Shown here piece by piece: positions 6,244 through 10,681 of a stretch of DNA of 49,724 nucleotides (within the stretch, counting starts at the first letter, position 1; every line of letters begins with the position of its first letter). The notes below the pieces were generated by a model. That model saw only the letters and a program-made list of their open reading frames with translations, did not search any database and was not told the DNA's origin. The position numbers were made by a program, and so were the translations under genes. Source of the DNA: Thermoproteota archaeon (lineage in GTDB: Archaea; Korarchaeota; Korarchaeia; Korarchaeales; Korarchaeaceae); NCBI GenBank assembly GCA_027491415.1, contig JAOZFH010000008.1:1-49724 (forward strand), given 5' to 3'.

Positions 6244-7395
6244 ATGGGCGTCAGAGTCCCGATCTCCAGGCCGCTGCTCGGAGCAGAAGAAGTGAAGGAG
6301 GTGGAGCTTGTCCTCAAGAGCGGAATGCTGGCGCAAGGGAAGAGGGTGAAAGAGCTGGAAGACGGGTTTGCCGAGTACGTGGGCGCTAGGCACGGCATCG
6401 CAGTGTCCAACGGGACGCTCGCCCTCCTAGTGGCCCTTCAGGCCATGGGGATTGGGCCGGGGGACGAGGTCATCACGACCCCCCTCTCGTTCTTCGCGAC
6501 GGCCTCGACCATTCTCATGACGGGCGCCGTCCCCGTATTCGTTGACATTGACCCGGAGACCTACAACCTCGATCCCGGGCGGGTGGAGGAGGTCCTGTCG
6601 GATCGCACCCGGGCGATAGTTCCGGTCCACCTCTTCGGTCACCCTGTCGACATGGACCCCCTGCTGAAGATAGCTCGGGAGAGGGATCTGCTGATTCTCG
6701 AGGACGCCGCGCAGGCCCACGGAGCTGAGTACAGGGGGAGGAGGGTCGGATCCATCGGCCACGCGGCAGCGTTCAGCTTCTACCCGACGAAGAACATGAC
6801 GACCGCCGAGGGTGGGATGATAACGACGAGCGACGACCGGCTGGCAGAGAGGTGTAGGCTCCTCAGAGACCACGGGCAGGAGTCAAAGTACGTTCACATC
6901 ATGCTCGGAATGAACTGCAGGATGACGGATCTCCAGGCGGCCATAGGGATAGTGCAGCTGAAAAAGCTGGATAGCATGAATGAGAGAAGGCGGGAGATAG
7001 CCAGAACGTACGTAGACGAGCTCGGTGGGCTCGAAGGGATCGAAATGCCAGTTGAACGCCCCTGGGCGAGGCACTCCTGGCACCTCTTTGCGGTCAAGGT
7101 CACCGGCCCGTCGAGGGACAGGCTGGTGGGAGCGCTTCGCGATCGGGGAGTGGATGCCAGGCCGAGTTATCCCATGCCGATATACGAACAGCCGGTGATG
7201 AAGAAGCTGGGGATCAGGGAGTTCGACCCGCTGTGGTTCGCGAGGTCGGGGAGGGGGTTCAAGAGGACAGAGTGCCCGAACGCGGAGAGGCTCGTCGATC
7301 AGCTCCTCCTCCTCCCCATCCATCCCGGAATGAGCGACGAGGACGTCCAACTCGTCACGAGAGCGGTTAAGGAGGCCCTGAGGGAGGTCAGCTGA
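6244..7395 (+). CDS. DegT/DnrJ/EryC1/StrS sugar aminotransferase
   Basis: PLP-dependent aminotransferase of 383 aa that typically puts an amino group on a nucleotide-linked keto sugar for surface polysaccharide or N-glycan building. Conserved features are GTLALLVALQ near residue 57, EDAAQAHGAE with Asp154 and Gln157, and the internal-aldimine Lys183 in SFYPTKNMTTAEGG. Length is normal. It is a single gene with a TATA box 26 nt upstream and overlaps the tail of the convergent S-component gene by 8 bp. Exact sugar unknown. Confidence 0.92.
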   Translation: MGVRVPISRPLLGAEEVKEVELVLKSGMLAQGKRVKELEDGFAEYVGARHGIAVSNGTLALLVALQAMGIGPGDEVITTPLSFFATASTILMTGAVPVFVDIDPETYNLDPGRVEEVLSDRTRAIVPVHLFGHPVDMDPLLKIARERDLLILEDAAQAHGAEYRGRRVGSIGHAAAFSFYPTKNMTTAEGGMITTSDDRLAERCRLLRDHGQESKYVHIMLGMNCRMTDLQAAIGIVQLKKLDSMNERRREIARTYVDELGGLEGIEMPVERPWARHSWHLFAVKVTGPSRDRLVGALRDRGVDARPSYPMPIYEQPVMKKLGIREFDPLWFARSGRGFKRTECPNAERLVDQLLLLPIHPGMSDEDVQLVTRAVKEALREVS

Positions 7396-7888
7396 CCCAC
7401 CTGCTCAGGGCCGCCCTGAGAACTTTGGATAAGGGGACCCCGACCAGAACTCCAGCCGCCGCCTGAAAGAGGTTCCCGGGCAGTTCCGCGACCGCCGCCC
7501 CCGGTCCCAGCAGAACGGCCTCCACGGTGAAGTAGCCCAGCACCATCTCGGCCACCGCGACGGTCGCGCCTGCGATCTCCGCCAACCTCCCCCGGCCCGA
7601 GACCAAGCCGGCTAGGGCGCCCTCAACTCCCTTGATGGCCAGAGTGTAGGGGGCGTAGTGAGCGTATCCAGACAGCAGGTCGGCGAGGGCCGAGCCGACT
7701 CCTCCGCAGAACGCCCCCACCGTGGGACCGAGAGCCAGTCCCAGGGCGATCACCACGGTGTCGCCCAAGTTTATGTATCCCTGAGTCGCCGGAACCGGGA
7801 TCTGCACTACTAGGGTGGTTGCTGCCACGAGGGCGGCGCCCATACCTGCGAAGGCGGCCCAGACGGACCCGTTCCTCGGCCCGGCCAT
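7388..7888 (-). CDS. ECF transporter S-component (vitamin uptake)
   Basis: Membrane substrate-binding subunit of an ECF-type vitamin transporter, about 166 aa with roughly five to six membrane segments. The stretch YINLGDTVVIALGLALGP, then GGVGSALADLL and YTLAIKGVEG, fits the riboflavin/HMP/pyridoxine-like S-component group (PF07155 type). No ECF ATPase or T-component is nearby, so it would use shared modules encoded elsewhere. The open frame continues far upstream, but the promoter evidence (TATA at 7920-7925) places the start at ATG 7888; ATG 7918 is the alternative. Divergent from the threonine-synthase-like regulator, which may control it. Confidence 0.8.
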   Translation of the reverse strand: MAGPRNGSVWAAFAGMGAALVAATTLVVQIPVPATQGYINLGDTVVIALGLALGPTVGAFCGGVGSALADLLSGYAHYAPYTLAIKGVEGALAGLVSGRGRLAEIAGATVAVAEMVLGYFTVEAVLLGPGAAVAELPGNLFQAAAGVLVGVPLSKVLRAALSRWVS

Positions 7889-7905
7889 CGCGAGCACCGA
7901 GGATG

Positions 7906-7935
7906 TATAAGTCAGCATTCTTATATTTGAGTCAG
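7906..7935. promoter_or_regulatory. Interleaved divergent promoters with 20-bp-spaced repeat
   Basis: TATAAG at 7906-7911 serves the rightward gene. CTTATA at 7920-7925 is the TATA box of the leftward gene. They face outward, 8 bp apart, so each gene's transcript starts beyond the other's box. A direct repeat AGTCAG occurs at 7910-7915 and 7930-7935, exactly two helical turns apart. It is a plausible operator controlling both genes. Confidence 0.5.
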
Positions 7936-7942
7936 AAAGCTT

Positions 7943-9328
7943 ATGTATCGGACTATGATGAAGTGGCTGGCCCGCTGCCCCGGGTGTGGGCTGAGCCGCG
8001 AGCTGATTCAGGTGACGCCTACCTGCCCAAAGTGCGGTACCCCCCTCCTTCTCCTGCCAGACCTCCAAGAGCTGCGGAACAGGGTGACCCCCGACGTCTT
8101 GGCCAACAGGGTTGCGGGAGTCTGGAGATACAGGGAACTCCTGCCGGTCTCTCGGGATCCCGTCACGCTCGGAGAGGGTGGAACCAGGCTCCACGCGTGC
8201 AGGAGGCTCGGGAGGGAGGCGGATCTGCGCGGCCTCCTGGTGAAGGACGAGACGAAGAACCCCACAGGCTGCTTCATAGACAGGGGGTCCACGGTGCTGG
8301 TGTCTCGAATAGTTGAAGAGGGATACCAGGGCGTCTACGGAACTGTCAAGGGAAACCTTGGGGCCTCTCTCGCTGCCTACTCGGCTAGGGCGGGGGTGGG
8401 GTGCGCGGTGAGGGTGGACGGGCCGACCGACCCGGCGAAGCTCTATCAGATGATTGCCTACGGGGCTGCAGTCTCCCCACCAGACGGCCGAATGGAGGCT
8501 CCAGAGCGATACTACAACGTCTTGAACTCTGATCCCCTCCTCGTGGAGGGCGAGAAGACGATATCGCTGGAGGTGCTGGAGTCTCTGGGGTGGGAGGAGC
8601 CTGACGCGATCGTCGTGCCCGTGGGTAGCGGCTCCCTCATGACCGCGGTCTGGAAGGGAATCACGGAGGCCAGGGAGCTGGGGCTCGTGCGGTCGGAGGG
8701 CGTCCGACTCTACGGGGTGAGACCGGGTGAGGAGAGCGCCGTCGCCCTGGATCTCCACTTTCCTGAGCCAGACCGCTTGGACCAGGCTAGTGAGGCTGTC
8801 AGGGAGAGCGGCGGGGACTTGATCACGGTCGGAGACGAGGAGATGCTGGAGGCCTCGAGGAAGCTCGCCCGCGCCGAGGGGATATTCGCCGAACCCGCCG
8901 CGGCCTCCACGCTGGCGGCCGCGGAGAGGCTGAGGGTAGAGGGAGAGATCTCTCCCTCAGACACGGTCGTCCTCATAGTGACCGGGTCCGGGCTGAAGGA
9001 CCCCACCGCCGCCGTCAGGGAACTTGAGAGGCTCCACTTAACCGACGCCTACGTGAAGGGGGAGCGCGTTGGCAGGCCGCTCGGGAGGACGAAGACGGCG
9101 ATCCTGAGGATACTGACCTCTGGTAAGATGCACGGGTACGAGATCTGGAGGAGGCTGAAGGGATCCGGCGTGGAGATCTCGCTTCCGGCAGTTTACCAGC
9201 ACCTCAAGTCACTAGAGGAGATGGGCGCGATTGCCAGGGTACAGACGGTATCAAAGAATGGGAGGTCTCGCGTGGTCTACTCAATAACCCCGAGAGGCAG
9301 GCTCCTCCTGTCGACCGTGGAGGGATGA
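7943..9328 (+). CDS. Threonine synthase-like pseudoenzyme fused to PadR-type HTH
   Basis: 461 aa with three parts: a zinc-ribbon (Cys12, Cys15, Cys28, Cys31), a fold-type II PLP-enzyme domain like threonine synthase (about 60-375), and a PadR-like winged helix (about 380-461; HGYEIW, PAVYQHLKSLEEMG). The PLP-anchoring motif reads KDETKNPTGCFIDRG: the invariant lysine is Ile112 (ATA, 8276-8278), and SGN in the next loop is KGN. The phosphate-binding-type loop VPVGSGS and the GSGLKDP motif remain. It should be unable to form the usual Schiff base, so I infer a ligand-sensing transcription regulator rather than an enzyme. It shares interleaved promoters with the S-component gene. A base error at AAA/ATA must be excluded. 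Start ATG 7943 fits the TATA box. Confidence 0.85.
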   Translation: MYRTMMKWLARCPGCGLSRELIQVTPTCPKCGTPLLLLPDLQELRNRVTPDVLANRVAGVWRYRELLPVSRDPVTLGEGGTRLHACRRLGREADLRGLLVKDETKNPTGCFIDRGSTVLVSRIVEEGYQGVYGTVKGNLGASLAAYSARAGVGCAVRVDGPTDPAKLYQMIAYGAAVSPPDGRMEAPERYYNVLNSDPLLVEGEKTISLEVLESLGWEEPDAIVVPVGSGSLMTAVWKGITEARELGLVRSEGVRLYGVRPGEESAVALDLHFPEPDRLDQASEAVRESGGDLITVGDEEMLEASRKLARAEGIFAEPAAASTLAAAERLRVEGEISPSDTVVLIVTGSGLKDPTAAVRELERLHLTDAYVKGERVGRPLGRTKTAILRILTSGKMHGYEIWRRLKGSGVEISLPAVYQHLKSLEEMGAIARVQTVSKNGRSRVVYSITPRGRLLLSTVEG

Positions 9329-9802: not shown

Positions 9803-10681
9803 TCACCCCTGCTCCGGCCCGGTGACGGCCAGCGTCACCCCAGCCAAGAGGACCGCGCCGCCAATCACGACCCTTAGGGACGGGACCTCGCCCAGCACGA
9901 CCCAGGCCAGAACCGTCGCTCCTATGGGCTCCATCAAGATCGCCAGCGAGACCACGTGCGCCTTGACGTACTTCAGGGCGTAGTTGTAGAGGGTGTGACC
10001 CACACAGGAGGGTCCCAGGGCCAGGGCCAAGAAGATCGCGTACTCCCTGAACGGGTAGCCTGTTAGGGGGCGCCCTATCGAGAGCGCGCCGGCAGCCAGC
10101 GCGAGCCCAGAGACCCCGTATACGGACGCCGCGTAAGACAGGGTGTCGAGGCTCCTCCTCAGCGCCCTGCCCGCCACCAAGTAGAGTGCCAGAGCCACCG
10201 CGCCCGCGAGGGCGAGGGTTGCTCCCAAGAGATCACGCTCGGTGAGGGTCCAGGCCTCGCCTACGATCTCGGCGGCGCCCAGCATTCCCAGAGCGATTCC
10301 GGCGGCCTCTCGAAGGGTTATCCTGTCTCCAAGGAGGGCCCACCCCAAGACGGCGGCAAACATCGGGGCAGAGTCGACCAGCACAACGCTCACCGCAACG
10401 GAGGTGTACTTGAGGGAGGTCGCCCAAGTCGCGAAGTGAACGGCCAGAGCGATCCCCGAGGCCGCTAGCTGTGGGAGCAGACCCTCAACGACCTCTACAG
10501 ATCTCAGTAGGGATGGGAGTGAGACAAGCGACATAATCGCGGCCGCTATCAGAAGTCTGTTGGCCGCTATCACCATGGCCGGCGCGTTGCTCAGCTTGAT
10601 CAGGACGCTGGCGGAGGACACGGAGGAGACCCCTATCGCCAGCGCCAGCCTTGAGTCAAGCCCGCGTTGACCCCGCGCCAC
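9803..10681 (-). CDS. EamA/DMT-family metabolite exporter
   Basis: Integral membrane protein of 292 aa with ten hydrophobic segments in two similar halves, the layout of the drug/metabolite (EamA) superfamily. Landmarks are the first-half ending WALLGDRITLREAAGIALG and the second-half ending VLGEVPSLRVVIGGAVLLAG. It probably exports a small metabolite or amino acid; substrate not predictable. Start GTG 10681 is leaderless: a TATA-like CCTTAATACC lies about 26 nt upstream on the minus strand. Confidence 0.88.
   Translation of the reverse strand: MARGQRGLDSRLALAIGVSSVSSASVLIKLSNAPAMVIAANRLLIAAAIMSLVSLPSLLRSVEVVEGLLPQLAASGIALAVHFATWATSLKYTSVAVSVVLVDSAPMFAAVLGWALLGDRITLREAAGIALGMLGAAEIVGEAWTLTERDLLGATLALAGAVALALYLVAGRALRRSLDTLSYAASVYGVSGLALAAGALSIGRPLTGYPFREYAIFLALALGPSCVGHTLYNYALKYVKAHVVSLAILMEPIGATVLAWVVLGEVPSLRVVIGGAVLLAGVTLAVTGPEQG

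Follow-up and report, generated by a model that had tools for sequence, protein, structure and literature searches.

The gene described here probably encodes a threonine-synthase-derived, PLP-responsive repressor of B6 acquisition, and thus an archaeal counterpart of the bacterial regulator PdxR. It lies in a stretch of 49,724 nucleotides from a Thermoproteota archaeon (assembly GCA_027491415.1, contig JAOZFH010000008.1), referred to below as the window. Its product joins a threonine-synthase fold without the PLP lysine to a PadR-type DNA-binding domain. The computed support for this assignment comprises the domain architecture, the family-wide loss of the lysine, the PLP pocket, the lost arginine for the substrate phosphate, the linkage to B6 genes and a palindrome. 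Table 1 gives the features of the locus.

Table 1. Features of the fusion gene, its divergent neighbor and the promoter between them (positions in the window)
Feature	Position	Strand	Remark
Lysine-less threonine-synthase-fold/PadR fusion protein	7943..9328	+	461 aa; proposed PLP-responsive repressor
N-terminal zinc ribbon	7976..8035	+	C12, C15, C28, C31; common to fused and unfused homologues
PALP/threonine-synthase-like domain	8162..8986	+	proposed ligand-binding domain
ATA = Ile112	8276..8278	+	Schiff-base lysine position, equivalent to Lys61 of T. thermophilus ThrS
K136-G137-N138 loop	8348..8356	+	Asn138 (PLP-ligand position in ThrS) retained; Lys136 restricted to a small subclade
Leu200	8540..8542	+	position of ThrS Arg160, ligand of the substrate phosphate; Arg in no aligned fusion
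PVGSGS phosphate-binding loop	8618..8635	+	conserved
Thr347	8981..8983	+	position of the ligand to the pyridine nitrogen; no variation among aligned fusions
PadR winged-helix DNA-binding domain	9101..9310	+	C-terminal; Pfam and structure model
ECF transporter S-component, PF07155/COG4720 (PdxU/HmpT family)	7388..7888	-	divergent from the fusion; proposed to import B6 vitamers and to be the main target
TATAAG-N8-CTTATA inverted repeat	7906..7925	+	in the 54-bp shared promoter (7889-7942); proposed operator over both TATA-like elements

Both domains of the window protein were assigned by Pfam, with PALP spanning residues 74-348 (E = 1.8e-55) and PadR residues 387-456 (E = 4e-13; 49.6 bits, compared to a gathering score of 27). 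The AlphaFold2 model, for which 49 aligned sequences served as input, had a mean pLDDT of 92.1, and its top matches in the PDB were threonine synthases. The protein has what defines the threonine-synthase fold, namely the PALP fold, the phosphate loop and the Asn and Thr at the ligand positions. Two features of the enzyme are missing. The Schiff-base lysine of the motif NPTGSFKDRG is replaced by Ile112, which aligns with Lys61 of the T. thermophilus enzyme (1uim alignment), and the arginine for the substrate phosphate is replaced by Leu200. A sequence-only reading of the locus had pointed to the isoleucine codon at the lysine position, to the retained phosphate loop and to the PadR winged helix that follows, and we confirmed each of these. 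It had also described a change of the SGN loop to KGN; codon 136 is indeed AAG (Lys), but of the 62 lysine-less fusions in the alignment just 6 have KGN, which is not a family trait. An independently assembled relative, L001, encodes a protein that is 98% identical, with an intact reading frame and again ATA at codon 112. The two genes differ with a dN/dS of ~0.10, and on the strength of this value and of the shared codon we consider the window gene intact and under purifying selection.

GTDB contigs and whole archaeal genomes were scanned, which yielded 98 distinct loci with the fusion and 41 threonine synthases without it. The lysine was absent from 79 of the 98 fusions and was retained in every unfused protein. 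The residue at this position in the fusions was Ile, Leu, Met, Val, Thr, Asn or Ser at 61 loci, Arg at 18 and Lys at 19. The question raised earlier, whether the lysine is consistently lost from fusions, is thus answered in the affirmative for most of the family but not for all of it; since one clade of 19 fusions has the lysine, its loss is typical and not universal. The outcome that would have refuted the reading, homologous fusions that all keep the lysine, did not hold. In a tree of the enzyme domain, computed without the lysine column, the fusions formed two well-supported clades (43 and 31 rows, support 97 each), with three long-branched fusions apart, and the window protein belonged to the first. 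The lysine-bearing fusions were a single clade nested inside the second, beside the Arg-bearing fusions. Regain of the lysine in this nested clade is the simplest reading, and retention is not excluded. The canonical-lysine fusions at the family f51 loci (L190-L221) form one nested clade, have Thr for Arg160 and are mostly arranged tail-to-tail with an S-component gene. The named taxa among the fusion records were Thermoproteota, Methanomethylicota, Culexmicrobium, Bathyarchaeota, Thaumarchaeota/Nitrososphaeria and Brockarchaeota. The survey of the phylum of G033 used an E-value limit of 1e-115, which left out weaker Arg-type fusions. A sequencing error at codon 112 was rejected, both by the same codon in L001 and by the frequency with which the lysine is missing from the fusions. 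The loss of a catalytic residue might also be taken as a sign of a decaying gene or of an assembly error, without any function. The dN/dS value, the intact reading frame in L001 and the conservation of the trait in many archaeal lineages leave this explanation virtually no room.

The remainder of the PLP site was inspected in the aligned sequences. The position of Asn138 was Asn in 57 of the 62 non-lysine fusions and Asp in the remainder, that of Thr347 was Thr in all 62, and the positions of Gly228, Gly230 and Lys166 were conserved in the aligned fusions. Arg160 of the T. thermophilus enzyme, the residue that binds the substrate phosphate, had an Arg counterpart in 17 of 23 unfused proteins and in no aligned fusion. 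The fusions have Phe, Leu, Thr, Met, Tyr or Ile at this location, with Thr in all 15 aligned lysine-bearing ones. Taken together, the conserved PLP positions and the lost equivalent of Arg160 suggest that the fusions seem to have retained PLP binding and to have given up the threonine synthase reaction, a judgment made without binding data. A protein that remains a catalyst, by way of a lysine elsewhere (Lys136 in the KGN loop being one candidate) or of non-covalent PLP, and whose PadR domain is merely autoregulatory, is a different possibility. The loop of Lys136 borders PLP in threonine synthase, this residue might conceivably give a Schiff base from a different side in the subclade of the window (the geometry is unmeasured), and one fused clade does have the canonical lysine. 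We nonetheless hold continued catalysis to be very unlikely, given the rarity of Lys136 among the lysine-less fusions, the absence of the Arg160 equivalent from all aligned fusions, the lysine-bearing clade included, and the presence of a separate, canonical threonine synthase with its lysine in the genome of the window (contig C28).

Genomic context is the decisive evidence for a role in B6 metabolism. We scored a fusion as linked when a B6 gene lay within 700 bp of it, and counted over the 98 fused and 41 unfused loci. Seventy fusions were linked (63 to a PF07155 S-component and 7 to pdxS, one of the latter being a pdxST operon), and none of the unfused threonine synthases was. With three additional fusion-pdxS pairs identified by coordinates (G120, G121 and G123), pdxS or pdxST adjoins the fusion in at least 10 genomes. 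The linkage to the transporter recurs in named archaea (L003, L005, L007, L015, L016, L017 and L026). In a Nitrososphaerales genome (L014), the neighbor of the fusion is a pdxS-pdxT operon in divergent orientation. The host genome has pdxS for every pdxS-linked fusion, and pdxS is missing from the genome of the window (96% complete), from its genus mate and from the other transporter-linked genomes that were checked. The counts are of non-independent events, but the association with B6 is seen repeatedly, in lineages far apart and for two distinct B6 functions. By the 700-bp test, 13 of the 18 Arg-type fusions had no B6 neighbor, although the gene adjacent to one of these (in G003) gave a weaker match to PF07155. 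Some Arg-type fusions without a B6 neighbor (L184, L185, L188, L195, L199; L100, L101) have GINS/MCM-like genes, recognized by eye, or FttA and a proteasome gene adjacent to them. In a Thaumarchaeota subgroup (L006 and L010), the gene divergent from the fusion encodes a nucleoside hydrolase (L006:4930-5910), which is not a B6 gene.

These neighborhoods also bear on the identity of the ligand, for which the sequence-only reading had listed PLP, O-phosphohomoserine or an amino acid. The S-component or pdxS neighbors favor PLP or B6, whereas O-phosphohomoserine appears disfavored because the arginine for the substrate phosphate is missing from every aligned fusion. A sensor of threonine or of another amino acid would have kept the part of the ancestral active site that faces the substrate, and would control threonine biosynthesis or an amino-acid transporter. 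The ancestry in threonine synthase, the conserved loop residues and Lys166 are compatible with such a sensor, as is the EamA transporter encoded at 9803-10681 of the window. Yet this neighbor is common only to the close relative, no threonine-pathway gene was recognized among the recurring neighbors of the fusions, where PF07155 and pdxS are what recurs, and the Arg160 equivalent is lost from every aligned fusion. An amino-acid sensor is therefore improbable in our estimate.

The preferred reading, a regulator that responds to PLP, leans at this locus on the gene divergent from the fusion. Its product matched PF07155 with E = 6e-33 (114.7 bits, compared to a cut-off of 26.7), and HmpT (4hzu, 4hzu_S) was its sole significant match in the PDB (E = 7.9e-12). 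PdxU and PdxU2/HmpT, both of PF07155, are among the only three characterized prokaryotic transporters of B6 vitamers or PLP according to Denise et al. (PMC9997740), and pyridoxamine is the substrate of HmpT according to Wang et al. (PMC4860826). Three of the six pocket residues of HmpT are identical in the S-component of the window (Tyr120, Asn140 and Gln143), and the others are replaced (Glu41 by Asp, His84 by Lys and Gln87 by Glu). Two of the six positions differ clearly, and we regard the substrate as unproven. Homologues of EcfT are present in the same genome. As HmpT was originally predicted to be an HMP transporter (PMC4860826), the S-component might instead import HMP or thiamine, with the fusion sensing a thiamine precursor (HMP or thiamine phosphate). 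Genes of thiamine type, encoding ThiD-ThiN, ThiN-domain proteins and an AIRS-family protein, lie close to the fusions in L006, L007, L008 and L016, and at these loci a link to thiamine or HMP is possible. As a general explanation it is unlikely: the PLP-making pdxS or pdxST genes adjoin the fusion in the genomes counted above, in one of them with the same palindrome as elsewhere, the fold and the conserved ligand positions are those for PLP, and the transporter-linked genomes that were checked lack pdxS. An AIRS-superfamily gene adjoins the S-component or the fusion at five loci (L005:4228-5283, L006:3723-4586, L007:4117-5127, L008:4837-5826 and L016:4022-5059). The two that were tested matched PF00586/PF02769 and fell under the cut-offs for HypE, ThiL and SelD; this neighbor is a candidate for a missing archaeal B6 (or thiamine-type) kinase.

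The shared promoters supplied a further line of evidence. A perfect 14-bp palindrome with a TATA-like core, GCCTATATATAGGC, was present in the shared promoters of many loci, just upstream of the start of the fusion and a few bases from a further TATA-like element that belongs to the divergent gene. In 228 genomes, it was found at 11 sites, one per genome, and each site was directly upstream of a fusion; the control with the reversed pattern gave scattered matches in other genomes. When up to two mismatches were allowed, the palindrome occurred at 28 loci, and at each of them none of 200 shuffles was as good. The pdxS-linked locus L014 is one of the 28, with the palindrome in front of pdxS. The pdxS loci of Clade B have a palindrome other than GCCTATATATAGGC. 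The promoter of the window does not contain GCCTATATATAGGC, the best match having four mismatches and no significance. Its own inverted repeat, TATAAG-N8-CTTATA, occurs once in the window, where 0.01 matches were expected, and has no other perfect match in the genome. The arms of this repeat look like the TATA boxes of both divergent genes, which suggests repression by blocking of TBP/TFB, an inference for which there are no DNA-binding data. The two attributes by which a PdxR-like regulator would be recognized, linkage to pdxST- or pdxU-type genes and a conserved operator-like palindrome, are hence found in the family, the window itself being linked to a PF07155 gene. The earlier suggestion that a PLP-enzyme fold has become a ligand sensor that regulates transcription gains support from this linkage and from the conserved palindrome, albeit comparative support only.

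A mechanism can be envisioned from these elements. An enzyme fold that lacks the covalent lysine and keeps the rest of the PLP pocket would hold PLP, or an adduct of it, in a reversible manner and could thereby report the level of free PLP; the loss of the lysine would turn the cofactor from a fixture into a signal. The PadR winged helix would recognize the palindrome in the promoter that the fusion has in common with the B6 transporter gene divergent from it (in other archaea, with pdxS). At high PLP, a PLP-bound dimer would sit over the TATA boxes and would turn off its own gene together with B6 import (or synthesis); at low PLP, the protein would release the DNA. PLP as the ligand, its reversible binding and its action as co-repressor are inferred, in the absence of ligand- or DNA-binding data, and dimerization, the direction of control and the substrate of the S-component are parts of the proposal that have not been shown.

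The closest functional parallel is PdxR, of the MocR/GabR subfamily of GntR regulators in Bacteria, which also combines a PLP-enzyme fold with a winged helix. PdxR is divergent from pdxST and has a regulon of pdxST, pdxK and pdxU, and MocR regulators have been reported to be absent from Archaea (PMC5320631). The construction of the two proteins is distinct. In PdxR, a fold-type I aminotransferase domain with the PLP lysine follows an N-terminal GntR winged helix, whereas the window protein has a fold-type II domain without the lysine and a C-terminal PadR winged helix. With ThrC (T. thermophilus 1uim/1v7c, A. aeolicus 2zsj and B. subtilis 6nmx) it shares the fold, the PLP pocket residues and 33-37% identity; ThrC has Lys61 and Arg160 and no PadR domain, whereas in the window protein both residues are replaced and the C-terminal PadR is added. 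Typical PadR proteins (PF03551) are small, whereas the winged helix of the window protein, with a Pfam score over the cut-off, forms the C-terminal end of a PLP-fold protein. ThiR, reportedly described by Hwang et al. in 2017 (cited in PMC8305020) as an archaeal thiamine regulator built from a ThiN enzyme domain, likewise pairs a DNA-binding domain with one taken from an enzyme of a cofactor pathway, but its fold, cofactor and DNA-binding domain differ from those of the fusion. In the open-access literature, to which our search was confined, we found no description of a ThrS-PadR fusion as a regulator or of an archaeal PLP regulator.

On balance, although with less assurance than for the individual fusion, we favor an unrecognized family of archaeal B6 regulators spread over several phyla. 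In this family a threonine synthase would have acquired a PadR helix, lost its lysine so that PLP became a reversible signal, and regained the lysine in one lineage; it would control uptake in auxotrophs and pdxST in prototrophs, in convergence with MocR/PdxR. This would provide archaeal B6 metabolism with a candidate regulator, complete with target genes and a proposed operator, of which the literature searched holds no example. It also suggests which proteins import B6 in archaeal auxotrophs, where a gap is recognized (PMC9997740), and may be a case of an enzyme that became a sensor by loss of its covalent hold on the cofactor, convergent with bacterial PdxR. The window protein is matched over its full length, the C-terminal helix included, by the NCBIfam model NF004170/PRK05638, "threonine synthase", with 256.1 bits, below the curated cut-off of 421. 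The members above this cut-off in our scans (G003, G033 and G055) are PadR-fused and have Arg at the position of the catalytic lysine. Judged by these residues, the NF004170 model as a whole is probably misnamed, and its name could mislead predictions of threonine pathways.

Two groups of loci depart from the common arrangement. The shortened fusions L019:5965-7143 and L022:5986-7029 have lost the GN loop entirely, and their PLP site seems to be gone. In several Bathyarchaeota/Crenarchaeota MAGs (L018, L021, L023, L024, L025 and L027), an unfused, lysine-bearing ThrS-like protein is encoded beside a divergent ORF of ~117-120 aa that resembles the PadR portion, an arrangement that looks like the fusion in two separate halves.
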